DNA from: Deltaproteobacteria bacterium
GTDB taxonomy: Bacteria; Desulfobacterota; Syntrophorhabdia; Syntrophorhabdales; Syntrophorhabdaceae
Length of the DNA: 45,295 nt
Assembly: GCA_029553295.1 (NCBI GenBank)
Contig: JAKPCK010000152.1
Coordinates: 1 to 45,295 of the forward strand
Direction: 5' to 3'
Positions 279 to 45,295 of this stretch are shown here, piece by piece; the stretch's first letter is position 1, and each line of letters begins with the position of its first letter. The notes below the pieces were generated by a model that had not been told where the DNA came from, did not search any database, and saw only the letters and a list, made by a program, of their open reading frames with translations. Made by a program: the position numbers and the translations under genes.

Positions 279-350
279 CACTAACGGCCAAGCTCACCAG
301 CCGCTATGGAGCGCAGCGAAACAGCGGTCAGGTGCAGAGGTTTGTTAGGT
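279..350 (-). repeat. Integron attC site 1
   Basis: A 72-base imperfect palindrome. On the minus strand it begins with ACCTAAC (344-350, matching the R'' consensus RYYYAAC) and ends with GTTAGTG (279-285, near the R' consensus GTTRRRY). The inner arms (CTGCACCTGACCGCT and its near complement AGCGGCTGGTGAG) pair with an unpaired extra base, as is usual for attC. It is about 63/72 identical by eye to the site at 6003-6074. Its orientation fits cassettes running leftward from the integrase. Confidence 0.8.
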
Positions 351-383
351 CATTTTTATATATCGCCAATTGAATATGACAGC

Positions 384-3300
384 CTATTTTTTCCTTATCT
401 CCTTAATGTACAATATCTTAATCCCCATCGGTAGCTTGGCTTCAACTCTATCACCTGCACGAGCACCCAAAAGGGCCTGCGCAATCGGTGTTCTGAAGTT
501 AATTGTTCCCCAATCAGGATTTGAGCTACCACATGTAATCATTACTTGTCGCTCTGAATCAGGGTTCTCATCGGATACATATACTATAGTATCACCTATT
601 TCAGCATATTCAGTTTTCGTTGCAGGTTCACCAATTGATTCACTAACCTTGCCTTCAAAATCTAATGCGAGTTTATTGTCTTCTGGTGCCAGTTTCTCAA
701 AATCCGAATTTTTCTCGTCTGGCGCTGATTTTTGTCCTCGCCTCGGTTGAATACCTCTCTCTTCAAGTATTAACCAAAGCTTCGAAAGCGCAGCATCCTT
801 ATCTGCGTAGAAAGCAGATTCTCGAACACGAAAAAACTCCCAGCCGCATCGTTCTAATTGTCGCTGGCGCTGCATATCCTCCTCGTAGCTTTCAAACCCA
901 TGCCATTGATCACCATCGCATTCAACTGCCAAGCGTGCATGGCCTCCTTCAACCACCAAGTCGATTCTTTTCCCAGCAACCGCAAACTGTGGAGTGACAA
1001 CAAATCCTTTTCTTAACAATTCCAGAGCAACATCTACCTCAAACCAACTTTCAAATGGAGTTGGCGATCTCACAACCTGACGATTATCCTGCTTAGCTCG
1101 GCGCTCAAGTTCATTCATATCGACCCCTGCTACTTGCTGAGGCTTCGAGTTCAAAAAAAATTCCAGCAGTCTTCGCCGTAGATCTTTTTCACTCAAATCC
1201 TCTAACTGAACCGAATAAAACAGCCACATCTGATCCCTAGCACGACTTGCAGCGACATTGAATCGTCTTTCATCCGCCGCTTTGGTAAGCGGACCAATTC
1301 TTTCATTGGTAGCAGCGACCATAGAAAGAAATATCACATCACGCTCATCGCCCTGGAAACTGTACGGATTTCCGCAAATAAGCCGCCGCTGCTCCATTTC
1401 TTCAGCTCCCAGTCGCTCCAGTAGTAAACTTTCAATGAGTCCCGCCTGTGCGTCACCTTGTAGCGCAATGGCCCCCATAGTCTTTTTCGCATAGCGGTCA
1501 TCAGAGCACAGTTCAATAATCTTTTCCACGATAGCTTGGGCCTCCGGGCGGTTGATTGCTCGATTATTACTACCCTCACGGTAGCCACCTTCCACAAAGA
1601 CGGGTTGAAGTGGAGGCAGTCGATCAGGACCATATTGTCGTAGTGGAATCAACGGCGTATCGGTATAGCAGAGATCGTTACTGAACCGGATAATCTCAGG
1701 CATACAGCGAAAGTGCTCACGCAGAGTGATTCGCCGAGTTCCATAGCGAAGCTTTCCGTGATCGAACAGGCTGCTCTCGACATCGAATGACGATTTGAAG
1801 CGGAAATCGTGGAGGAGTTCCTGCATCAGTCGATGGACGGCATCGCGGGGCAAACCCACGGCCTCCGGGCTGATCTGCTTGTCGTCACCAACAATCAATA
1901 TCTTCTTGCCAAGATAGAACAGAGGAAGTGCTTCCACACCGCATTGTGATGCCTCGTCAACAATGATGACATCGAACATTCCCGGGGCTGGGTCCACCGT
2001 GTCCCAGACCCGATGGAGCGGCATGACCCATGCCGGAACCGCCTCCCGACATTGATTGAGATGCTGTTGGGCATCCCGCCTGTGGCGTGGTGCATGTTTT
2101 CCTGTCCCTTTACCAAGTCGCTGCATGGACTGCTGCCAAGCTTCCATGTGGCGTCGATGATCTTCCTTGAGTCGGGAAAAGCAAAACGACCAGGCATGAA
2201 TCGAAGCAAGCTTCGAAATAGTCGAGTTGATTTCGTCTTCAATTTGTTTCGCGCGTTTAGTGAGGGCAGGGAAATCTTCTTTCCGAATATATTCTTCAAT
2301 CCAATATCGAGCTTGCGCCCAACGCCACGCATCTCCGATATGTTGAAGGCGTTCGTCCCAATATGGCTTGTGGCAAGTTCGCTTCAATTCATCTGTGAGA
2401 TTTGGCAGTAGGTTGTTCAATTCTGAAAGATACTCATCTACCTTTTGAAGACGCTGACGATGTTCCTTTAGCTCCTGAATCTGGCTCAATGCATTTGCGA
2501 ATCCATCCAAATTACGGTCACGAATAGCGTTCAGCAATTTGCGTGTCACGGAATGGGCTTTGCTGTTGGTGGCGATGGACGATATTGGAGACTCAATGCT
2601 TTGAATTTTTTCGGCGGCAAGCCGCTTCTGACGCCGGGCCTGTGCAAGTTGGCAAGAGGCGATTAACTTTTTAACCTGCAATTCATCAGCCCAGTTGGGT
2701 TCACTTATAGCGGAGTAGTGCCTTATGGCCTCCCGGCATTTCTCAATGAGATTTTCAAGCAACAATACCTCTTCAAGAGCGTTGCACATTGATTTAAGTG
2801 CTGTCAGTTGCAAAACATATGGTCCTGGCACCTTCTCAGCCCGTCCTGCCCAGAACCCCCAAGCCTTTTCAAACTCGATTCGAACATACAACGTATCGCA
2901 GAGAAGAGAGAAGTGTTCGACAGTAGAGCAAGGATGCCCGCCGATCCGCACAGTCTTGATTAAATAAATGCGTTCTTTCACCGTTTTGGGCCGGAAGAGC
3001 CACCAGCCCAGTTTCCCACCATACTCCATGTGCTCTTTTAACTTGCGGGCGTCTTCATATAGCGTCCTGATATTAGTAGTATCCGCAATTTCCATGCTAT
3101 TGTTGTCTGCGGTTTCAACGATGGGTTCAACTGATGTGATCACATGCTTCGTTACACTAACAAGTTCTAGCCAAAGGGCTGAGTTTCCGCACAAGACATC
3201 TCGAAGTGCATCAACCATCCAGGAATATGGTGACGACGTCAATCTTCTTCGTGCGTCAAAAAAATGGGAAAGAGCGGTGCGTATCTCTTCGATAACCTCG

Positions 3301-5165
3301 GGATTGTTTTTTGACAATAGGTCGGCGATTCGTTCATCAGCCCCCTTTTTTGCACAATGTTCTTCTTCATTCGCCTTCTCTTCATCCTGAATAAGTTTGG
3401 CAAAGTTCTCGGTAGATGGTACTTCTTCCGGCCATAGAAATTGTAATTCCTTGCGTTTTTCGTGTGTGAAATAGCGAAGGTCATTAAGAAAGCACCCTAA
3501 CTTGGCCACATCTATCGGGCAAGTTTTGTTTAGTGGTACCTTGTCGGTGAACCAATCATATTTCGCTCTGTCGCGGTTGACGGCTTCTGCGATTCGAGCT
3601 GCAGTGCCTCTATACGCACCGTCCGCAATGGGACGTGTATGGGTTTCGGACTCCCGAATATCGCGGAGTCGCCGATTAACCTTGGCTTGCTCCTCTCGCA
3701 GATTTCGGAGGCGTTCTTCTAGTTCCATCCGCTCTTGTGTGGCGCGCTCTTCGTTCCACTCATCATTCTTGCGGAGTATGCCACCAACGCTGGCTTCCAG
3801 AGAGCGACGTTCCTCGAGATCGCTACCAAGGAGGTTGATGCAGAGAGGACGTAATTCGGTTGGGATTAGGCCTTCAAGAACCTGCAAAGCACGCGGTGTT
3901 TTGGCTGTAATGAGGGTTCGATGTCCCGTGGCAAGCAGATGGGAAATCAGATTTGCGATGGTGTGAGACTTTCCCGTGCCTGGCGGCCCCTGCACAAGGA
4001 CACCGCTCGCTAATCGAATCTTGTCCACGATACGGCGTTGCTCTTCATTTGACGGCTTTGGAAAGAAGACCTCTTCATCGAATGTCGCGGTTTGTTCTTC
4101 CGGTCCATCACCGGATTCGCGATCAACTTTGTCGCCGATTTCGGCAAGATCCGCGAATTCATAAGGGATGTAATCACCCTTTTCGATCCGCTCTTTGATT
4201 CGTTTCAGGGTTTCTGTAAGACCCTTTAAAGAACGCTTTCGCAGGATTAACGCGGGGGCATATTCGACGACTGGTTTTTCTGAAGCACGGATATCTCCCT
4301 TCTGCAGAGTCTCGACATATTCGCCCTGGGGATTGATAGAATGAACCAAGGCTTGGAGCACTCCTTCAATGCAGTCTTTGTCCCAAGGATCATCTCCGGA
4401 ATCAGCCAATGAAGCCTTCGCGGTTTCCTCAGCGCGTATTGGTTGCTCCTCCACATCCAACATGTCTAGTTCAGGCCGGAGCTTTGCCCCTTCCGGGTGA
4501 GATCGGACGGTGAATTTCCCCAATCGCGCCTCAAACTCAAGCACAGCGTCAGCAACAATTAGGTGTCGACGAACACGTTGGCCAGAAGGCGTCTGCCAGG
4601 TAAGTAGTCCTAAACCGAGAATGAGTTCGTATTCCTCGCCAAGCCGGAGTTGTTCATAGTGGATGGCGAAGAGTTTGGAATATACTTTGTGCACGCTTTC
4701 CCAAACGTTATGATCTTCGACCCAGGGGAACCATCGTGCTTCGATATATCGGTCCCAGGCCTTTTGTATTGCAGGAAAATCTTCCAGATGTTCTGTTATT
4801 GAAATATATTCCGATTGTTCAGTTCCCTCCCGCCATTCAGGATTCTTGATCTTCTTGATTCTCTCGGGCAAAAGTTGTGGCAAGTCATTCTTGTTTCTCA
4901 GGGGTGATTTGTCGATCCAGCCTTCACATTGATCCGGTATAGTTGGCAAATCTGGCTCTCGTCGAGTCTGAATTTCAATCCAGATATCAGAATCATAGTC
5001 CTCGTCTCTGCCCCATGCTTGCGTGAAACAGCCCTTTTGCTGTGGAATATCAGAGAGCCAAAGAATTTTATCGTAGTCGTTGATCTCCCGCACCAGCTTG
5101 GTTCGTAAGGAAGCAAGCCGTATAAGATAGTCGACCAGATGAAAAGCTTTTTGTCTATCTGTCAT
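384..5165 (-). CDS. SF1 (UPF1-like) helicase fused to a Vsr-like nuclease and a GreA/GreB C-terminal domain
   Basis: A very large protein (1,593 residues from ATG at 5165). Residue numbers here count from an in-frame TTG at 5186, seven residues earlier. Motif I GPPGTGKS lies near 400, the DEAD-like box DEASQ near 1075 followed by GDDKQI, then EHFRCMPEI, FQGDERDVI and NVAASRARDQ (motif VI) near 1312: the COG1112/AAA_11-AAA_12 helicase set. A MTES_1575-type, Vsr-like nuclease domain follows (about 1380-1490) with RIDLVV and VECDGDQWH. The last 75 residues (IGDTIVYV, TPIAQALLGARAGDRVE) look like the FKBP-like C-terminal domain of GreA/GreB. Neither start has a good Shine-Dalgarno sequence; I prefer the ATG because MTDRQKAFHLVDYL looks like a natural N-terminus. 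It overlaps the truncated peptidase upstream by 11 bases. Such helicase-nuclease fusions are common in phage-defence islands, so a nucleic-acid defence role is likely but inferred. Confidence 0.85.
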   Translation of the reverse strand: MTDRQKAFHLVDYLIRLASLRTKLVREINDYDKILWLSDIPQQKGCFTQAWGRDEDYDSDIWIEIQTRREPDLPTIPDQCEGWIDKSPLRNKNDLPQLLPERIKKIKNPEWREGTEQSEYISITEHLEDFPAIQKAWDRYIEARWFPWVEDHNVWESVHKVYSKLFAIHYEQLRLGEEYELILGLGLLTWQTPSGQRVRRHLIVADAVLEFEARLGKFTVRSHPEGAKLRPELDMLDVEEQPIRAEETAKASLADSGDDPWDKDCIEGVLQALVHSINPQGEYVETLQKGDIRASEKPVVEYAPALILRKRSLKGLTETLKRIKERIEKGDYIPYEFADLAEIGDKVDRESGDGPEEQTATFDEEVFFPKPSNEEQRRIVDKIRLASGVLVQGPPGTGKSHTIANLISHLLATGHRTLITAKTPRALQVLEGLIPTELRPLCINLLGSDLEERRSLEASVGGILRKNDEWNEERATQERMELEERLRNLREEQAKVNRRLRDIRESETHTRPIADGAYRGTAARIAEAVNRDRAKYDWFTDKVPLNKTCPIDVAKLGCFLNDLRYFTHEKRKELQFLWPEEVPSTENFAKLIQDEEKANEEEHCAKKGADERIADLLSKNNPEVIEEIRTALSHFFDARRRLTSSPYSWMVDALRDVLCGNSALWLELVSVTKHVITSVEPIVETADNNSMEIADTTNIRTLYEDARKLKEHMEYGGKLGWWLFRPKTVKERIYLIKTVRIGGHPCSTVEHFSLLCDTLYVRIEFEKAWGFWAGRAEKVPGPYVLQLTALKSMCNALEEVLLLENLIEKCREAIRHYSAISEPNWADELQVKKLIASCQLAQARRQKRLAAEKIQSIESPISSIATNSKAHSVTRKLLNAIRDRNLDGFANALSQIQELKEHRQRLQKVDEYLSELNNLLPNLTDELKRTCHKPYWDERLQHIGDAWRWAQARYWIEEYIRKEDFPALTKRAKQIEDEINSTISKLASIHAWSFCFSRLKEDHRRHMEAWQQSMQRLGKGTGKHAPRHRRDAQQHLNQCREAVPAWVMPLHRVWDTVDPAPGMFDVIIVDEASQCGVEALPLFYLGKKILIVGDDKQISPEAVGLPRDAVHRLMQELLHDFRFKSSFDVESSLFDHGKLRYGTRRITLREHFRCMPEIIRFSNDLCYTDTPLIPLRQYGPDRLPPLQPVFVEGGYREGSNNRAINRPEAQAIVEKIIELCSDDRYAKKTMGAIALQGDAQAGLIESLLLERLGAEEMEQRRLICGNPYSFQGDERDVIFLSMVAATNERIGPLTKAADERRFNVAASRARDQMWLFYSVQLEDLSEKDLRRRLLEFFLNSKPQQVAGVDMNELERRAKQDNRQVVRSPTPFESWFEVDVALELLRKGFVVTPQFAVAGKRIDLVVEGGHARLAVECDGDQWHGFESYEEDMQRQRQLERCGWEFFRVRESAFYADKDAALSKLWLILEERGIQPRRGQKSAPDEKNSDFEKLAPEDNKLALDFEGKVSESIGEPATKTEYAEIGDTIVYVSDENPDSERQVMITCGSSNPDWGTINFRTPIAQALLGARAGDRVEAKLPMGIKILYIKEIRKK

Positions 5166-5868
5166 ATTTTTCAGAATATTGTCCAAATTGTTCTTTATCT
5201 TCTTGGTTATTTAGCCCTAACGGCTTGAGCTTCATTTGCGCCGCGCCCGGCACCGCCGCCGCAATGCCTTGCTCTTGCGATTCGAGATAGGCTCGCAATG
5301 TATTCGCCGCATCCTCCGCCACGGGCTCGACCAGAAAGGTTCGACACAGATCCACCGTATAGCCACGTGCAATCGGTGCGAGATGCACCTGAACCACGTC
5401 TCCGGGCGCTATCTCCTTCGTTGAGGCCGGTCCGTGCGCCATGGCAGAACGCCATCCTGACGCTACATAGGTCGCCGATACGACCCGGGCGCCAGGCAGG
5501 ATATGAGATGTGAATATCTCATAAAGCGCTTCATCGAAAAAGTTCTTTTCAACCGCAATGGTCGCTTGTTCCAGTTCAAGTTCGCTTAGCACATCGCGAA
5601 AGCCATGGAATAGCTCCTCCTCACTGCGAAAGGCTCGAATCTCGTTAGCAGCGGAAGCTTTACGAACGCTCGCCAAATCGCACTCCGGCACCGCGACGAT
5701 GCATTGCAACTTGCGGGTGAGCAGCGCCAGGGCACAGGGCCGCTCGTCGCCGGTCAGATAGGCGAGATTGGTTGGCTTCATCAGGAACAAAGCGTCGATG
5801 CCTTCTTGCTCCATCAGAGCCACGGCGCGTTTCCAGCGAAACAGGTAGTCGAATGTTTCATCGCTCAT
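5155..5868 (-). pseudogene. M24 (aminopeptidase P/creatinase-like) peptidase, 3'-truncated
   Basis: 237 residues starting at ATG 5868, preceded by GGAGGG. The N-terminal creatinase-type domain is complete (WKRAVALMEQEGIDALFLMKPTNLAYLTGDERP), and the start of the pita-bread catalytic domain is present: AHGPAS, I-PGDVVQVHL, GYTVDLCRT (the Asp is the first metal ligand). The protein then ends about 130-150 residues early in an unrelated tail, so the remaining metal ligands (Asp, His, Glu, Glu) are lost and peptidase activity is not expected. The gene is strikingly GC-rich compared with the helicase next to it, which suggests a different source. The break near 5225 is where the helicase upstream region was joined. 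It could still be translated and couple translation into the helicase gene. Confidence 0.7.
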
Positions 5869-5995
5869 GATACAACCCTCCTTTTGGTAGTTGGTAGCGG
5901 GTGAATCGCACCGCGTATTGCCCGCCATCACGGGTACCGAATACGTCTCGATCAGCTCGGTGATTGTGGCGATGTATCTCAATGACTTGGTTCAT
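5858..5995 (-). CDS. 45-residue hypothetical protein at the start of the large cassette
   Basis: Starts at ATG 5995 with GGAGG eight or so bases upstream, immediately after the attC2 R' box (6003-6009), which is the normal position for the first gene of a cassette. It runs MNQVIEIHRHNHRADRDVF and on, and ends at TGA 5858-5860, overlapping the M24 start by about 11 bases, so the two are probably translationally coupled. I do not recognise the family. It has many charged and His/Arg residues and no membrane segment. It might be a small real protein, or the front of a gene that was later joined to the M24 fragment. Confidence 0.4.
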   Translation of the reverse strand: MNQVIEIHRHNHRADRDVFGTRDGGQYAVRFTRYQLPKGGLYHER

Positions 5996-6002
5996 CACGG
6001 CC

Positions 6003-6074
6003 TCCTAACTGCCAAGCTCACCTGCCGCTATGGAGCGCAGCGGAACAGCGGTCAGGTGCAGCGCCTTGTTAGGC
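6003..6074 (-). repeat. Integron attC site 2
   Basis: On the minus strand it starts with GCCTAAC (6068-6074, perfect RYYYAAC) and ends with GTTAGGA (6003-6009, close to GTTRRRY). The internal arms CTGCACCTGACCGCT and AGCGGCAGGTGAG pair with one extrahelical base, and CGCTCCATAGCG lies at the centre. The stop codon of the glutamine amidotransferase gene (6069-6071) sits inside the R'' box, as is common for cassette genes. Nearly the same sequence as the site at 279-350. Confidence 0.88.
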
Positions 6075-6830
6075 ACCATAAACACACTGCCCATCCTTGA
6101 AAACACGCATGTAGCCTGGCGTTAGATTATTCCACTTTTCGTCCGTCAAAGGGCGTGTCGCAATCACAAAACCTCTCTGATCTCGCCTCTTTTCCTCAGC
6201 CAAATCAACCTCCCAATCCTCATCCCTTAGAGATACCTTACTAAATGGGGCAGTTCGCTCAGTCATGCAAAGACCGTTATAGCCATCTCTGTCGCGGTAA
6301 CTGTAAAGATGTTCCCCTTCTGAAAAAAGAATATTCATGGTGCCATATTTGTTGAATTCTTGAAAAACAGCCTCAATCTTATCAAACTCTGTGAAGGTGA
6401 TTTTTTCGTTAGACAATACCGTGAGTAAAGCACAGAGCAGATATTCGGAATCCGTTTGACCTACAGGGTGAAACTTCAATAAAGACTCTGCCATAACCGG
6501 GTCCAGGGTGCCGTTGTGGGCAAGTGCTACTTCACGGGAACGAAAAACACGTATAAAAGGATGGGTATTTTGAAGGGTATGTTTTCCTCGACTTGCATAA
6601 CGCACATGGCCAATAAATATCTTGCTCTCAAACAGTTCGTAATCCCTAAGAAATGTGGCCAGTTTACTGCTGGAAGACTTAATTGGTTCCTTAAATACTT
6701 GACAGGCTCGTCCGTCAAATCTGGCTATTCCCCATCCGTGCGGGTTATGTTCACCGCGATGACGGAACCCTCTGAAAGAGAGCGAGCACCGAACAGGCTT
6801 ATTAAAATTGAGGCCAAGCAACTCACACAA
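6069..6830 (-). CDS. Class II glutamine amidotransferase (YafJ-like)
   Basis: 253 residues. The start is TTG at 6828-6830, which places Cys at position 2, the N-terminal nucleophile needed by this Ntn-hydrolase family once Met is removed; AAGGAGGAGG lies upstream. Motifs seen include RHRGEHNPHGWGIA, IGHVRYASRG, TLQNTHPF, ALAHNGTLD and TDSEYLL, the usual glutaminase-pocket residues of stand-alone YafJ/EgtC-type proteins. There is no synthetase domain, so the acceptor of the ammonia (or of a gamma-glutamyl amide hydrolysis reaction) is unknown. It is a single-gene integron cassette, from the attC at 6853-6909 to that at 6003-6074, and the gene fills almost the whole cassette. Confidence 0.85.
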   Translation of the reverse strand: MCELLGLNFNKPVRCSLSFRGFRHRGEHNPHGWGIARFDGRACQVFKEPIKSSSSKLATFLRDYELFESKIFIGHVRYASRGKHTLQNTHPFIRVFRSREVALAHNGTLDPVMAESLLKFHPVGQTDSEYLLCALLTVLSNEKITFTEFDKIEAVFQEFNKYGTMNILFSEGEHLYSYRDRDGYNGLCMTERTAPFSKVSLRDEDWEVDLAEEKRRDQRGFVIATRPLTDEKWNNLTPGYMRVFKDGQCVYGA

Positions 6831-6852: not shown

Positions 6853-6909
6853 GTCTAACGCCAACATCACCGGGAGCGGTATGCGATCCGGTGCATGTAT
6901 TTGTTGGCA
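6853..6909 (-). repeat. Integron attC site 3
   Basis: A 57-base imperfect palindrome between the toxin and amidotransferase genes. On the minus strand it begins TGCCAAC (6903-6909, degenerate R'') and ends GTTAGAC (6853-6859, a perfect GTTRRRY R'). The arms CATGCACCGG and CCGGTGATG pair with an unpaired G. Its internal sequence is unlike the other two sites, which is normal for attC. Confidence 0.72.
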
Positions 6910-6912
6910 GGT

Positions 6913-7248
6913 TTACAATTGCAAACCCGTAAGTCTTCTTAGAAGAATGTCTTCAATGTTCTGTCGAGAATCCAGCACTGACAGGACGTAGACTCTATTC
7001 TCATAAACCCTGTATACGATCCGCCAAGGCGTAATGATCAGTTCACGGTAATGTGTAATTCCCTGTTCCAGAAGCTCAGGAACTATACGACCTCTATCAG
7101 GGAAAGATCGGAGGTCTGATGCTTTTTCTTTAATTCTTTTGAATATCTCGTAGGCTTTATGAGGATTGTCATCGGCGATGTACTGAACGATTGCAATAAG
7201 ATCATTCTCCGAGGTTTCAGACCACCGCACGTCATAAAGTTTTTTCAT
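6913..7248 (-). CDS. RelE/ParE-family toxin
   Basis: 111 residues, MKKLYDVRWSETSENDLIAI, with the family core IVQYIADDNPHKA and the C-terminal block YRELIITPWRIVYRVYENR. RelE/ParE toxins are small cytoplasmic proteins that either cut mRNA at the ribosome or poison gyrase; the sequence alone does not tell me which. The start overlaps the antitoxin stop (ATGA at 7245-7248), so the pair is translationally coupled. It is the first cassette next to the integrase, and its 3' end lies directly before the attC at 6853-6909. Toxin-antitoxin cassettes are known to stabilise sedentary integron arrays. Confidence 0.88.
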   Translation of the reverse strand: MKKLYDVRWSETSENDLIAIVQYIADDNPHKAYEIFKRIKEKASDLRSFPDRGRIVPELLEQGITHYRELIITPWRIVYRVYENRVYVLSVLDSRQNIEDILLRRLTGLQL

Positions 7249-7526
7249 TTCATCTTTTCTTTTAGAATGGCCTCAATGTTTGCAAATACATCTTCCTGGG
7301 GCTTTGTTTTTCCCCGCCTCACGTCTTCTTCACCCTGTGAAAGGAGCTTCAAAATCCCTATAGCATTTCTCATATTCTCGTAGCTTAGAGGGTCCTGGAG
7401 CACAGCCCTGGGTTCCCCATTTTGGGTGATGATTACGGGACGATGGGTTTCGTTTATTTGTTTCAACAAATCAGGAGCCTTTGATTTTAGATAAGTAATA
7501 GGTTTAATGTCCTTCGAAATATTCAT
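7245..7526 (-). CDS. Phd/YefM-family antitoxin
   Basis: 93 residues. The N-terminal half (ITYLKSKAPDLLKQINETHRPVIITQNGEPRAVL) is the Phd/YefM DNA-binding fold. The charged C-terminal half (GEEDVRRGKTKPQEDVFANIEAILKEKMK) would wrap the toxin. It starts at ATG 7526 with a strong ribosome site (GGAGGTGATGGT) and lies under a good promoter of its own (7548-7575), so it does not need the integron Pc promoter. It probably represses this promoter together with the toxin; no clear operator palindrome was identified. Confidence 0.88.
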   Translation of the reverse strand: MNISKDIKPITYLKSKAPDLLKQINETHRPVIITQNGEPRAVLQDPLSYENMRNAIGILKLLSQGEEDVRRGKTKPQEDVFANIEAILKEKMK

Positions 7527-7764: not shown

Positions 7765-8911
7765 ATGTTAGATGCGTTTAAACAGTTTTTGAGCACAAAA
7801 GAAAGACTCCCTGAGAAGAATCTCCACTATTATGTCAAATGGGTTTCTGATTGCTATCGCTATTTCGACAAACCAGAGACCGAGTTGTTGACTAACGATC
7901 AAAATTCTAAATTCCTCAATCATTTAGCCAAAAAGCACGAGGACTGGCAGGTTCAGCAGGCAGATAGGGCATTGAGATTATATGGTTATTTTCTCACCCG
8001 TATAAAGAGAAATGCAGACGGGAGTTCAGGAGATATGCCAGATAATTGGAAAAAAATCGAGGAAAAAACGCGGGAAGCCCTAAGGCTTCGCCACAGATCA
8101 TACAGCACTGAAAAAACCTATATATTATGGCTCCGCCAGTTTCAGGGATTTATTAATGGGAAGCAGCCTCTATATTCAGAGGGCAAGGATATTCAGGATT
8201 TTCTAAGCTATCTTGCTGTTGTGAAAAAGGTTTCTGCCTCAACCCAGAATCAGGTGCTCAATGCTATTGTTTTTTCTATCGTTATGTATTGGATAAAGAT
8301 ATCTAAGGCGAAATCAGCGCAGTAAGGGCAAGACAAAATCGGAGGCCGCCTGTTGTTTTGACGGTAAATGAAATAGAAAAGATATTTTCAGAGATGTCCG
8401 GTGTCAACGAGTTAATGGCGAGGCTCATTTATGGATGCGGCTTAAGATTGCAGGAGTGTTTGCAGCTAAGGATAAAGGATGTTGACTTCGAGCAGAGTCT
8501 TGTTATTATTCATTCAGGCAAAGGCGACAAAGATAGACGAACTATGCTGCCTGAAGCTGTAAGAGAAGAACTTATTAAACATATCAATGAAATCAGAGTT
8601 ATCTATGAAAAGATAGAAATGCAAGGTTAAATGGCATTCAACTGCCCGGAGCATTAGAGAGGAAGTATCCGAATGCCGGCAAGGAATGGAGATGGTTTTG
8701 GTTATTTCCATCGCAATCGCTTTCGATGGATCCTCGATCTGATGTTATAAGGCGTCATCATGTTTATCATGATGTACTACAGAGAGCATTTAGGAATGCT
8801 GTCATAAAAGCAGGGATAACAAAACAGGCTTCTGTTCATACATTGAGGCACAGTTTTGCCGCGCACCTGCTTGAAGATGGATATGACATCAGAACTATTC
8901 AGGAATTGTTA
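7765..8911 (+). pseudogene. intI: Integron integrase (IntI-type tyrosine recombinase), inactivated
   Basis: Three consecutive reading frames together resemble IntI. Part one (7765 to about 8270) holds the SAM-like domain with LRLRHRSYSTEKTYILWLRQF and SASTQNQVLNAIVF. A one-base loss in the T-run near 8270 shifts the frame, and the restored frame meets TAA right after YRYVLDKDI. Part two (to about 8612) contains the catalytic Arg box LIYGCGLRLQECLQLRIKDVDFEQ. A second one-base loss near 8612 shifts to part three, with [18 protein letters not shown], the extra patch unique to integron integrases, and [25 protein letters not shown]. Similarity then stops at 8911; the expected GH...Y ending with the catalytic Tyr is absent. 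Transcription is away from the cassettes, as usual. The enzyme cannot be functional, so cassettes can no longer be moved by it. Confidence 0.93.
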
Positions 8912-12445: not shown

Positions 12446-13666
12446 ATGAAAAACCCCCTTTCCTGGCAACTGACAATCCATACGGTTACATCCCTCACAA
12501 GCCAGATAAAACGCCTCATCAATAATCAGTTCAGGGATATTTTAGTAGAGGGCGAGATATCCAACTTCAAGCTATATCCATCAGGACATGTCTATTTTAC
12601 CCTAAAGGATGACCAGTCTATAATAAAGGCGGTTATGTTCAATTTTTACGGGAGATACCCTGATGATATGTTCAGAGACGGTGTATCTGTCATATGTAAA
12701 GGCAGGGTAGATGTTTATGAAAAAAGGGGTGAATACAGGCTCATTGTGGATGCCCTTGAGGTAAGGGGCGTAGGTCTCCTTCAGCTTAAATTCCAGATGC
12801 TAAAAGAGAAGCTTCTGAAAGAAGGCATATTCGATGCAGGAAAAAAGAAGACCCTGCCCCTTCTTCCACAGAGGATCGGGATTATAACCTCCCCTGCAGG
12901 GGCAGCAATAAGGGATATGTTAAAGATAATATTCCAGAGATACCCCAATATGTCTGTTATTATCTATCCTGTAAAGGTTCAGGGTGATGATGCATGTTAT
13001 GAGATAGCAAAGGCCATAGAATACCTCAATATGACGAGGGAGGTGGATGTAATCATCCTTGGTCGAGGGGGTGGCTCCCTGGAGGACTTGGCACCCTTCA
13101 ATGAGGAGGTGGTGGCAAGGGCAATATTTGCATCACTTATACCTGTTGTATCCGGTGTGGGTCATGAGATAGACTTTACCATAGCAGACTTTGCCGCTGA
13201 TGTGAGGGCACCTACGCCAACTGCAGCAGCAGGCATTGCTGTACCTGATAAAAGAGAACTATGTGATTTGATAGACCAGATGCGGGAGGATCTTATCCAG
13301 TCCATGATAGATATACTGGAGAGGAAGAGGTTTTCTCTATATCAGTCTATGATGGAATTAAAAGATAGGCGGGATTTTATCGTCTCATACAGGATGTATC
13401 TCGATGAGCTCGTGAACAATATGTTTCACAACCTCTCTGTGTATATGTTGAATAAAAGACAGGCATTTCAGGGGCTTGTCCAGAGGCTATACGACCTGAA
13501 CCCTGACAATATCCTCAAAAGGGGATATAGCATTGCCCAGAAAGTAAAGACAAAAGAGGTCATATACGATAACAGACAGGTATCCCAGGGCGAGGATATC
13601 TCTTTGAGGTTATACAGGGGTGTTTTAGGCTGTGAGGTAAAAGAGATTATAAATAGAGAGACCTAA
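12446..13666 (+). CDS. xseA: Exodeoxyribonuclease VII large subunit
   Basis: 406 residues from ATG 12446; an upstream in-frame start at 12368 would overlap thiC and is unlikely. It has an N-terminal OB fold (about 10-110: LVEGEISNFKLYPSGHVYFTLKDD, VICKGRVDVYEKRGEYRLIV) and the catalytic domain RIGIITSPAGAAIRDML, VIILGRGGGSLEDLAPFNEE, VVSGVGHEIDFTIADFAADVRAPTPTAAA. The helical C-terminus ends with NPDNILKRGYSI. The enzyme degrades single-stranded DNA in repair. The small subunit gene xseB, often next to it, is not seen here. Confidence 0.95.
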   Translation: MKNPLSWQLTIHTVTSLTSQIKRLINNQFRDILVEGEISNFKLYPSGHVYFTLKDDQSIIKAVMFNFYGRYPDDMFRDGVSVICKGRVDVYEKRGEYRLIVDALEVRGVGLLQLKFQMLKEKLLKEGIFDAGKKKTLPLLPQRIGIITSPAGAAIRDMLKIIFQRYPNMSVIIYPVKVQGDDACYEIAKAIEYLNMTREVDVIILGRGGGSLEDLAPFNEEVVARAIFASLIPVVSGVGHEIDFTIADFAADVRAPTPTAAAGIAVPDKRELCDLIDQMREDLIQSMIDILERKRFSLYQSMMELKDRRDFIVSYRMYLDELVNNMFHNLSVYMLNKRQAFQGLVQRLYDLNPDNILKRGYSIAQKVKTKEVIYDNRQVSQGEDISLRLYRGVLGCEVKEIINRET

Positions 13667-42030: not shown

Positions 42031-44529
42031 CTATATAGAGGAGGGGTCATATTCCTCTCGACGCATTACCGTATCATACAGACCAATACCTTCTCCTTCG
42101 CGTCGATTGATACCGGTATAGACCAGGCTGGGGTCTTCATACCGCTTGAACTTGTACACAGCGTCGTTCATGAGAGCACTGTTGAACACACCCAGACTGA
42201 CGAGGAGTTCAAAGTCTTTCACCGTCAACCCCGTTACTTTCTTGAACAAGCCGGGTTCCAGTTGCGTGATCACATCCCGAAGGGTTCTTTCCCGGTAGTC
42301 TGTCAAATACATAAAGATGGGAACGCGGGTGGCGAATTTGATGAGTTTCTCCTGTATTTGTTTTCGCTTGCTCTTGAACTCTTTTTCTTCCTCGGTCAGT
42401 TCACGTTTTTCTTTGGTGGTAAGCTCTCTGTCGTTAGCTTCTTTCTTGAGCTTTTTCACAGCTTCGGATTTATTGATAATGGTCTCGATGTCCTGATTGA
42501 GGTTGCGGAACCCTTCGATGCTCATCAGCGCCTGCATCGCCTGTTCATTGCTCATCAGCCGCCGCAAGGTGTCGTTGTCCACGTTCACCAGCAGAGCGCT
42601 CTCCCAGCGGCGGGCCAGCAGCGTTGCGGTGGTGCCGCTCATAGCCATGTCGAGAACACCGGCGGCGTCGATCTGTTTCATGGAACTGCCGTCATAGGCT
42701 AGCACCGGCAGGAAATGGATGAATTCCTCCACCTTCTTTTCCGGGTCATCCTCGTTGACATTCAAGCGGCAACTGTAATCGGCGATCTGCCGCAAGGCCC
42801 GATCCGGCGCAAAGTCGAAGACGTAGCACTCTTCTTTTAAAATCAGCTCCTCATTGGGCGAGGTCCCATCGGGGTTCTTGATCGTCCACGGATTCTGCAC
42901 GCGAAATGCGGCCTGGAAATATGTCTCCGGGCTGGAAGAATTCCGTAACATAAAGATGCCTGTCCAGGGCCGCACCGTAACCCCGGTCGTTAGCTTGCCG
43001 CAGGTCAAGGTGATGGTTTTGGTCTTCAGGGGATCGCCCATTGCCTCCAAAACCGGCGGCAGCGCATGGACCCCAATGCCTGCCGCGGCGCCTGCGGCTA
43101 CTATGACTTTGTAATCGTGGTAAAACTTGTTTTGCCTCTTGGCCAAGAGATTTCGCATGGCATAACAGGAAGCAACGCTCGGCAGAAACCACAGGGTATG
43201 CGAAAGCACACCCAAGAGCCGCACATCCGAATAGGGCAGCGGCGGCCTCTGCGCTCCCATCCTTAAATTGTCCAAACTTGTGGGGAGGTCGGCGCCGCGA
43301 ATCAGATCCAGCCATTTCTGAACCTCATCTTCATACTTGAAACGTGCCTGATCACCTACCCCCTCTGCCGAGAAGAATACATTCAGGTCGAATTCGTTGA
43401 ACTCTCCCTTCATGGCCACTTCTCGAATGGCATCCGGCAGTTGATATGTCATGAGCACCATGCGCGGCAGGGCGGCGTAGGGATTATTCGCGCCACGCCA
43501 CTCTTCCTTGGCTTTTTGTTCATCTGAATATGTCCAGTTGTAAATCTGCTCTTCGATGAACTCGCCTGTGGCAATGGCTCGGAAGGGGGTGCCGGAAAGG
43601 TACAGATAATGGTCAGAGGTAATGGGCAGAATATCCTCGTCAAAGTAGTCAATGGCTTCACCTTCAGCTGCTTTTCTTTCCTCTTCGTCCTCTGCTTCAA
43701 AAAGGTCCTTTGCCTTTTCCCGCCAGGCGCCGAAGTGGTATTCATCGAAGATCACACAGTCCCAGTTTGTGGTGTGGACCCATTCGTTTTTGGTTTTGAT
43801 GCCGCCGGTGCTCGGGTTACGGCCCAGATAATCCTGAAATGAGCCGAAGCAGACGATGGGCTTCTGCTTGTCCGCATCTTCATAGCTCAGCCCGCCTGGC
43901 TTTATGAACTGCCATCCCCGAAAGTCCACATGGCAGCGCAAATCCTCTTCCCAAGCGCTTTGCACTGCCGGCTTGAAGGTGAGCACCAGTACCTTTTTCC
44001 AGCCCATGAGTCTGGCCAGTTGATAAGCGGCAAAGGTCTTTCCGAAGCGCATCTTGCAGTTCCACAGGAAATGGGGCGTCTTATCGTTTTCTCGGCGGTA
44101 GTTCTTGAAGTAGGCAATGGTCTTTTCCACCGCGGCCTCCTGCTCCGGCCGCATTTTGAAATTAAGCGAACGCTGCTCCTCAAAGAGCTGCCCTTCCCGG
44201 ACGGCGTTAATGGCAGACTTTACCTGCTCCACCGTACAGCGGAACCACTCCCCACCAGCCTGCTGGATGCCGTTGATACGCAGCATCTGGTGCACGTCAT
44301 GGTCGGTAAAGACCGTGCCATCACTTCGAATGGCTGTCTCTTCTAAAACGATGCGGTAGGGCAGTTCCCCCGGCCTGAGCGTCTGATACTGCTGCGCCAC
44401 CCGCTCCTGCACGCTCTTGGTGGTGTAGCCGATTTTGAGCAGTCCCGCATACTGAGGATGGGTATCCTCGTAGGCGTAGATTTTTGGTTCGACCCCGGGG
44501 CGGGGAGGAAAGAATTCTTGATTAATCAT
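42031..44529 (-). CDS. GIY-YIG (T5orf172-type) nuclease fused to a DEAD-like helicase
   Basis: 832 residues. Residues 16-100 are a T5orf172/MUG113-type GIY-YIG domain (YAYEDTHPQYAGLLKIGYTTKSVQERVAQQY, with GGEWFR at 92-97 holding the likely catalytic Glu). An SF2 helicase follows: motif I NCKMRFGKT (157-165), motif II FDEYH (261-265), SGTPFRA, then LTCGKLTTGVTVRPW and the arginine-containing AAFRVQNPW. The tail (about 640-832) has a coiled, charged part (KEKRELTEEEKEFKSKRKQI). This fits a restriction-like helicase-nuclease of defence islands. It overlaps the DUF1016 gene by eight bases. Base use is more GC-rich than in the core genes, which suggests transfer. Confidence 0.87.
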   Translation of the reverse strand: MINQEFFPPRPGVEPKIYAYEDTHPQYAGLLKIGYTTKSVQERVAQQYQTLRPGELPYRIVLEETAIRSDGTVFTDHDVHQMLRINGIQQAGGEWFRCTVEQVKSAINAVREGQLFEEQRSLNFKMRPEQEAAVEKTIAYFKNYRRENDKTPHFLWNCKMRFGKTFAAYQLARLMGWKKVLVLTFKPAVQSAWEEDLRCHVDFRGWQFIKPGGLSYEDADKQKPIVCFGSFQDYLGRNPSTGGIKTKNEWVHTTNWDCVIFDEYHFGAWREKAKDLFEAEDEEERKAAEGEAIDYFDEDILPITSDHYLYLSGTPFRAIATGEFIEEQIYNWTYSDEQKAKEEWRGANNPYAALPRMVLMTYQLPDAIREVAMKGEFNEFDLNVFFSAEGVGDQARFKYEDEVQKWLDLIRGADLPTSLDNLRMGAQRPPLPYSDVRLLGVLSHTLWFLPSVASCYAMRNLLAKRQNKFYHDYKVIVAAGAAAGIGVHALPPVLEAMGDPLKTKTITLTCGKLTTGVTVRPWTGIFMLRNSSSPETYFQAAFRVQNPWTIKNPDGTSPNEELILKEECYVFDFAPDRALRQIADYSCRLNVNEDDPEKKVEEFIHFLPVLAYDGSSMKQIDAAGVLDMAMSGTTATLLARRWESALLVNVDNDTLRRLMSNEQAMQALMSIEGFRNLNQDIETIINKSEAVKKLKKEANDRELTTKEKRELTEEEKEFKSKRKQIQEKLIKFATRVPIFMYLTDYRERTLRDVITQLEPGLFKKVTGLTVKDFELLVSLGVFNSALMNDAVYKFKRYEDPSLVYTGINRREGEGIGLYDTVMRREEYDPSSI

Positions 44530-45295
44530 CGGATAAAAGCCTCTCCAGTTCTTTTTGCAATTGCTTTTTATCAGGCAAATAGAGTTGATATTTACTCACA
44601 AAGAGTTGATTGGTGATGTTATGGGTAGCATATTCTACCAGAATATGATCTTTGTATGCCCCCAGAACGATGCCAATGGGCGGGTTATCGCCCTCAACAT
44701 TTTCTTCTTTGGCAAAATAGTTCAGATACATGTTCATCTGCCCGATGTCTGTATGATCAATCTCGCCACGCTTGAGGTCAATGAGCACAAAGCACTTAAG
44801 GATGCGGTGGTAAAAAACCAAATCCACATAAAAATGCCGGTTGGCCAGAGAAATTTTGTATTGCCTGCCCACAAAGGCAAACCCCTTCCCCAATTCCAGT
44901 AAGAATAACTCCAGGTTTTGAATAAGCCTCTGTTCCAGTTCACCTTCCAAATATTGTTCCTTTGGTTGAATCCCAAGAAACTCAAATACATATGGGTCTT
45001 TAATTAAATCCTCGGCTTTCTCCACCTCACTGCCCTTTTGAGCAATCTCCATTATACCAGTTTTATCTTTGCTTAATGCCAGACGGTGAAAGAGCATGCT
45101 CTTCATTTGACGCTTCAGCTCACGCACACTCCAGTTTTCTTTTTCACATTGTCGGGTATAGAAACTGATTTCGAGCTCGCTGTCGGCTTTGATAATTTCG
45201 ACGTAATGACTCCAGCTCAATTGTCCAGACAGTGTCTGGATTTTTGGAAACTTGAGATAAAATTGCCTAATCTGGAAAAGATTGGAGCGGCTGAA
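44522..45295 (-). CDS. DUF1016/YhcG-family PDDEXK nuclease, N-terminus beyond the window
   Basis: The frame stays open to the window edge, and the 25 codons upstream of a possible TTG at 45220 (FSRSNLFQIRQFYLKFPKIQ) match the N-terminal DUF1016 domain, so the gene begins outside the window. Seen are SWSHYVEIIKADSELEISFYTRQCEKENWSVRELKRQM and the C-terminal nuclease core: FVGRQYKISLANRHFYVDLVFYHRILKCFVLIDLKRGEI (Asp, then Asp-x-Lys as the PD-(D/E)xK variant), GQMNMYLNYF, PIGIVLG. The family is often found next to restriction-modification genes. It precedes and overlaps the GIY-YIG/helicase gene, so the two probably work together. Confidence 0.9.
   Translation of the reverse strand, partial: FSRSNLFQIRQFYLKFPKIQTLSGQLSWSHYVEIIKADSELEISFYTRQCEKENWSVRELKRQMKSMLFHRLALSKDKTGIMEIAQKGSEVEKAEDLIKDPYVFEFLGIQPKEQYLEGELEQRLIQNLELFLLELGKGFAFVGRQYKISLANRHFYVDLVFYHRILKCFVLIDLKRGEIDHTDIGQMNMYLNYFAKEENVEGDNPPIGIVLGAYKDHILVEYATHNITNQLFVSKYQLYLPDKKQLQKELERLLSDD

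Follow-up and report, generated by a model that had tools for sequence, protein, structure and literature searches.

A decayed peptidase remnant probably fused to a giant helicase-nuclease cassette in an inactive chromosomal integron, and attC-flanked relatives of the helicase in about seven phyla

The stretch of DNA analysed here (the window, 45,295 nucleotides) is an entire contig, C124, of a Deltaproteobacteria genome of 2.25 Mb that is 96.8% complete in 157 contigs and is probably a metagenome assembly. The window carries an integron array oriented along the minus strand. Starting from an integrase (intI) pseudogene on the plus strand (7765-8911), the array consists of a yefM-parE cassette, an attC site (6853-6909), a GATase_4 cassette, a second attC site (6003-6074), a composite unit holding a large helicase gene, a third attC site (279-350) and a repeat end. 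The features are as follows.

7765 to 8911, plus strand: intI pseudogene, with frame shifts near 8270 and 8610 and an in-frame TAA; the C-terminus with the catalytic Tyr is absent
6913 to 7526, minus strand: yefM-parE, first cassette, with a Phd/YefM antitoxin (7245-7526) and a ParE toxin (6913-7248), by Pfam
6853 to 6909, minus strand: attC of the yefM-parE cassette (covariance model R1, E 2.7e-8, the site being in the R1 training set; independent model R2, E 0.003)
6069 to 6830, minus strand: GATase_4, second cassette, a class-II glutamine amidotransferase (Pfam, E 2.9e-78)
6003 to 6074, minus strand: attC1, upstream boundary of the composite unit, with G^TT at 6009 (R2, E 6.6e-21)
5858 to 5995, minus strand: 45-aa ORF overlapping the start of the M24 gene, read from the sequence
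5222 to 5868, minus strand: M24 peptidase fragment, Creatinase_N plus part of Peptidase_M24 by Pfam, with ATG at 5868
5215 to 5221, minus strand: lone R' box GTTAGGG, the inferred start of the helicase cassette, with G at 5221 and a spacing to the ORF as in sister cassettes
384 to 5186, minus strand: SF1 helicase-nuclease of 1,600 aa, AAA_11/AAA_12, REase_MTES_1575 and a C-terminal GreA_GreB domain, by Pfam, motifs and fold match
279 to 350, minus strand: attC2, attC of the helicase cassette, with G^TT at 285 (R2, E 2.4e-17)
1 to 236, no strand assigned: repeat end, with copies 95-97% identical at the contig ends G000:C106 and G000:C6

The structure is a small chromosomal integron that is now inactive. 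The intact intI gene of a functional integron is lacking, and no second IntI was found in the genome at E≤1e-15. The repeat at positions 1-236, probably an insertion sequence whose transposase is not seen, interrupts the array 48 nt beyond the recombination point of attC2, and the contig terminates there. The thi operon adjoining the integron is syntenic in two genomes of the same genus, neither of which has an integron at that place. A few additional attC sites lie on other contigs of the same genome. One such contig (G000:C112; locus L096, 1800-2622) carries a short cassette cluster that lacks an integrase, with two attC sites behind small ORFs. At the opposite end of the window is a G+C-rich (55-58%) gene pair (42031-45220, minus strand) that looks like another acquired defence locus. 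One member of the pair is an 832-aa helicase-like protein with a PADLOC type IIG match and an N-terminal region that by eye is T5orf172/GIY-YIG-like; the other is a PDC-S02/PD-DExK nuclease-like protein.

The two attC sites that enclose the helicase gene are 91% identical over 69 nt, and the R2 covariance model that recognises them was trained solely on attC sites from other genomes. An earlier, sequence-only reading of this DNA had proposed a unit between the R' boxes of two nearly identical attC sites, and the recombination points do fall exactly at G6009 and G285, giving a unit of 5,724 nt. Its account of the contents, a small ORF, a truncated peptidase and a 4.8-kb helicase gene, likewise holds, these being the 45-aa ORF, the M24 fragment and an intact ORF of 1,600 aa. 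Absent from that reading were the attC site at 6853-6909, closer to intI, and a third R' box (G at 5221). This box, in the context CAAGCC-GTTAGGG, precedes the helicase ORF by 35 nt, at the very point where similarity to M24 peptidases stops, and separates an M24 remnant of 788 nt from a helicase unit of 4,936 nt. The frequency of GTTAGG in the window is 0.14 per kb per strand, so that its chance expectation within a 60-nt stretch is about 1%. The box fits the R' consensus G^TTRRRY at six of seven positions, with a final G instead of Y, and the R' boxes of attC1 (GTTAGGA) and attC2 (GTTAGTG) depart from the consensus likewise. The helicase unit has the two ends of a cassette, an R' box at its start (GTTAGGG, G at 5221) and an attC site at its 3' end, attC2 beginning 34 nt past the helicase stop codon in the orientation of the gene. 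Between 5868 and 5186, the M24 and helicase interval, only the R' box and no recognisable attC was found, leaving M24 without an attC of its own. A search of plasmids returned no close DNA match to attC2.

The window protein is an SF1 helicase-nuclease of the REase_MTES_1575 group. The Pfam scores for the AAA_11/AAA_12 motor and the MTES_1575 nuclease (55.7, 59 and 95.9 bits) all exceed the curated cut-offs, as does the score of the C-terminal GreA_GreB domain. The Walker A motif GPPGTGKS (K406) and the DEAS box (D1077, E1078) are conserved, as are the nuclease residues D1409, E1422-C-D1424 and H. Among solved structures, Sen1, Upf1 and Dna2 come nearest. A fold search with the N-terminal ~370-378 residues gave no significant match. 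For the C-terminus, modelled at a mean pLDDT of 76, the fold matches were GreA/Gfh1/Rnk, with E as low as 3e-7, and at a weaker level (E 4e-3) the catalytic domain of the homing endonuclease I-Bth0305I.

REase_MTES_1575 proteins have been described as combining an SF1 helicase, a Vsr-type REase and winged helices (PMC3710099). The window protein resembles them in having an SF1 helicase followed by a Vsr-type nuclease, and most of its relatives also have the wHTH/DUF3320-like tail; unlike them, the window copy has no HEPN or transglutaminase domain in Pfam, and a GreA domain replaces the winged-helix tail (PMC3710099). As the winged-helix/DUF3320-like tail of most relatives occupies the position of the GreA-type tail in the window copy, the tail has been exchanged within the helicase family. 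GreA-type domains dock on RNA polymerase, and a recruitment role for this tail, possibly through binding of RNA polymerase, is therefore plausible. The dN/dS ratio is about 0.18 between the window copy and its relative L018 and about 0.12 between cassettes, and dS is only about 0.8 between copies from different phyla. The last two values point to a fairly recent transfer and to a protein maintained by selection, which, judged from these substitution ratios, is purifying.

A scan at one genome per species yielded 51 relatives of the helicase, 27 of them close (46-80% identity). In 10 of the 27 close relatives (L021, L022, L025, L027, L028, L029, L038, L042, L043 and L045), an attC site comes immediately after the stop codon of the helicase. 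By their record titles, the attC-bearing relatives come from Acidobacteria, Lysobacterales, Brocadiaceae and other Planctomycetota, Nitrospirae, Limisphaerales, Lentisphaerae and Chlorobaculum, about seven phyla in all. The TAA stop lies inside the R'' box GCCTAAC in most of them, and the R' box of the sister cassettes (GTTAGGC) lies a few tens of nucleotides ahead of the start codon. Stand-alone helicase cassettes measure 4,948 nt (L022), 4,951 nt (L043) and 4,952 nt (L042), next to 4,936 nt for the helicase part of the window. The L022 locus is a full integron with an intact 353-aa IntI and nine attC matches, and the helicase is there an independent unit, alone between two attC sites. The earlier reading had named as a check the same helicase gene with its own attC in related genomes. 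Such a gene, with its own attC, exists in other phyla, and its occurrence alone as a cassette across phyla identifies the helicase as a self-contained giant cassette. The attC sites of L027 and L028 have degenerate R' boxes, so not every sister attC should be taken as active.

Closer to the host, the helicase is found in 18 of 395 genomes of the window's phylum at E≤1e-60, and no full-length match occurs among 40 mostly close relatives. One copy from the same phylum (L117) is 79% identical to the window protein over the last 305 residues and has the same GreA tail. Its contig ends inside the gene, and an attC-like site just after its stop was recognised by eye and is unscored by the model. Identity between the window helicase and plasmid relatives is below 60%. 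In the tree, the window helicase groups with non-cassette, partly BREX-linked copies at 99/100, with the bootstrap unsettled; the cassette copies consequently need not descend from a single event, and the window copy may represent either an independent capture or a former cassette that returned to the chromosome. In locus L020, where the helicase relative has no attC, the C-terminal fragment of an integron integrase (13055-13642, minus strand) is found shortly downstream of that relative.

In alignment, the M24 fragment shares 71% identity with an M24 peptidase encoded by a plasmid of Cupriavidus. About 65 internal residues are deleted in frame and everything after ..IAAAVPGAAQM is absent, which makes the fragment a decayed remnant. 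The GC-rich M24 gene, which the earlier reading proposed to look for in intact form in related genomes, does occur intact on Cupriavidus plasmids, but not in the form of a cassette, and no attC was detected near the plasmid copies. No M24 relative was found among 98 related genomes at E≤1e-20, and neither M24 nor the 45-aa ORF occurs in the loci of the helicase relatives. M24 with its own attC was found in no genome, so the case for a former M24 cassette rests on its position behind attC1, which suggests that it was once one.

The occurrence of the helicase alone with its own attC, at 4,948-4,952 nt elsewhere, implies that the unit in the window consists of two pieces that no working attC separates. 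The heading of the earlier reading, a single 5.7-kb cassette, therefore gives way to a composite with an R' box at 5221, while the explanation offered beneath it, fusion of two cassettes upon loss of an attC, fits best. We assign a probability of roughly 0.8 to the interpretation that the unit is a decayed M24 remnant (788 nt) fused to a complete helicase cassette (4,936 nt), the product of which would be a DNA-targeting anti-phage effector. Movement of all 5.7 kb as one cassette, with joint acquisition of M24 and the helicase, is very improbable. Both do lie between two functional-looking attC sites, and in the present array IntI could excise them only jointly. However, M24 is truncated, internally deleted and next to no helicase relative, whereas the helicase alone is a cassette elsewhere, with the length of the helicase part here. 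The helicase-M24 junction, which in genomes without attC sites would argue against movement as a cassette, was seen nowhere else. An artefact of metagenome assembly or binning deserves even less credence. The 157 contigs, the probable metagenomic origin and the ending of the window in a repeat would allow for one, but an R' box marks the exact position of the junction, the helicase reading frame is uninterrupted and strongly conserved, and the thi operon next to the integron keeps its synteny in the two same-genus genomes.

The fusion of the M24 remnant to the helicase cassette would have involved loss of the attC between them, and it could have come about by two routes. A deletion could have run from inside M24 into the attC of M24, leaving the R' box behind. 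In the other route, IntI would have used a secondary G^TT inside M24 as the insertion point of the helicase cassette, in place of attC loss, with the 3' part of M24 lost later. We regard this intragenic insertion as a tentative possibility. A precedent exists in L115 and L120, from two genomes of one family, where a helicase cassette apparently sits inside an integrase gene, beginning at GTTAGG in an intI truncated after residue 110 (8235-8520 in L115 and 3057-2780, minus strand, in L120). These junctions resemble that of the window, with a truncated gene joined to a G^TTAGG-helicase unit. The L043 cassette is another that stands alone in a chromosome, and no attC was detected upstream of it. 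Against such an insertion, the displaced 3' part of M24 was found neither in the sequence beyond attC2 (237-284) nor elsewhere in the genome. The attC right arm CTCAAGCCGTTAGGG on a close M24 homologue is a sequence that would speak against intragenic insertion.

The genes adjacent to several helicase relatives point to a role in defence. The closest relative of the window helicase (L018, 812-5254) is followed directly by PglZ, and another (L024, 7980-12830) is flanked by BrxHII and PglZ in a BREX locus of type III, where PglXI and BrxA are present too. In L019, L036, L073 and L074 (the loci include two IMG/VR contigs), a helicase relative sits beside phage head-morphogenesis genes, and an excisionase-like HTH gene lies upstream of it in L019, L073 and L074. 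BREX loci are known to hold additional nuclease effectors as embedded back-ups (PMC12839542). The L024 relative, placed between brxHII and pglZ, and the L018 relative, immediately ahead of pglZ, resemble these effectors. The window copy differs from them in standing alone in an integron, and an inspection by eye, rather than by profile, noticed no BREX gene, including the core genes PglZ and BrxC, in the window ORF lists. PADLOC gave partial matches of the window helicase to PDC-S37, MkoC (Mokosh) and Hhe (205, 138 and 103 bits), with which it has an SF1 helicase core in common; its nuclease region is also matched in PDC-S37 and Hhe. Coverage of all three profiles is partial, however, and the window has neither a Mokosh partner gene nor the full-length MkoA or MkoC match that would accompany one in a Mokosh system. 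No description of PDC-S37 was found in the literature searched.

The association of relatives with BREX loci and prophages favours the earlier suggestion of a captured defence gene, and from it, together with the intact helicase and nuclease motifs and the purifying selection, we infer that the helicase-nuclease is probably an anti-phage defence gene. In such a role, the SF1 (Upf1/Dna2-like) motor would move along invading nucleic acid and the Vsr/EDxHD-type nuclease would cut it, while the exchangeable C-terminal tail would set the site of recruitment, through a winged helix in most relatives and through a GreA-type domain here that may bind RNA polymerase. It is rather unlikely that the protein is instead a housekeeping repair or RNA helicase, captured by chance and without a role in defence. 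Such a function would fit with Sen1, Upf1 and Dna2 as the nearest structures and with a GreA-type tail that could link the helicase to transcription. It is harder to reconcile with the patchy distribution within the phylum (18 of 395 genomes) and among the 40 mostly close relatives, with carriage of the gene by integrons, prophages and BREX loci, and with the low dS between copies in different phyla.

Phage-defence cassettes are established in Vibrio and in mobile integrons (Darracq 2025, Getz 2025, Kieffer 2025; cited in PMC12444791 and PMC12409362). The present case resembles theirs in presenting probable anti-phage cargo as attC-flanked cassettes in sedentary integrons, and differs in consisting of one 4.8-kb gene, known from sequence, that spans about seven phyla outside Vibrio. 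What is new relative to the known defence cassettes is this size and phylum breadth. No description of the helicase cassette was found in the literature covered by our search, which left most subscription journals outside.

Cassette coding sequences have a median length of 362 bp in sedentary integrons and of 575 bp in mobile ones, and assays of excision by IntI have gone no further than about 3 kb, a length at which it can drop more than tenfold (PMC5371416). The longest cassette in one resistance-cassette database is 1,860 bp (PMC3087341). Cassettes of ~4.95 kb with near-constant length in several phyla suggest that integrons move far larger genes than is usually assumed, large effectors among them. 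Integron surveys have defined attC clusters by gaps of less than 4 kb (PMC9668308), a limit that 4.95-kb cassettes exceed, and such cassettes may therefore be systematically lost from surveys. We would give even odds to the broader proposal that a single-gene anti-phage helicase-nuclease of ~5 kb travels between phyla as a giant cassette, resides also in BREX loci and prophages and swaps its tails, and that surveys with an attC gap below 4 kb break it up or miss it. The fused form in the window illustrates how the units of an array can be welded together once an attC is lost and the integrase is dead. Should the role in defence hold true, a single family of proteins would form a link between integrons, prophages and BREX islands.
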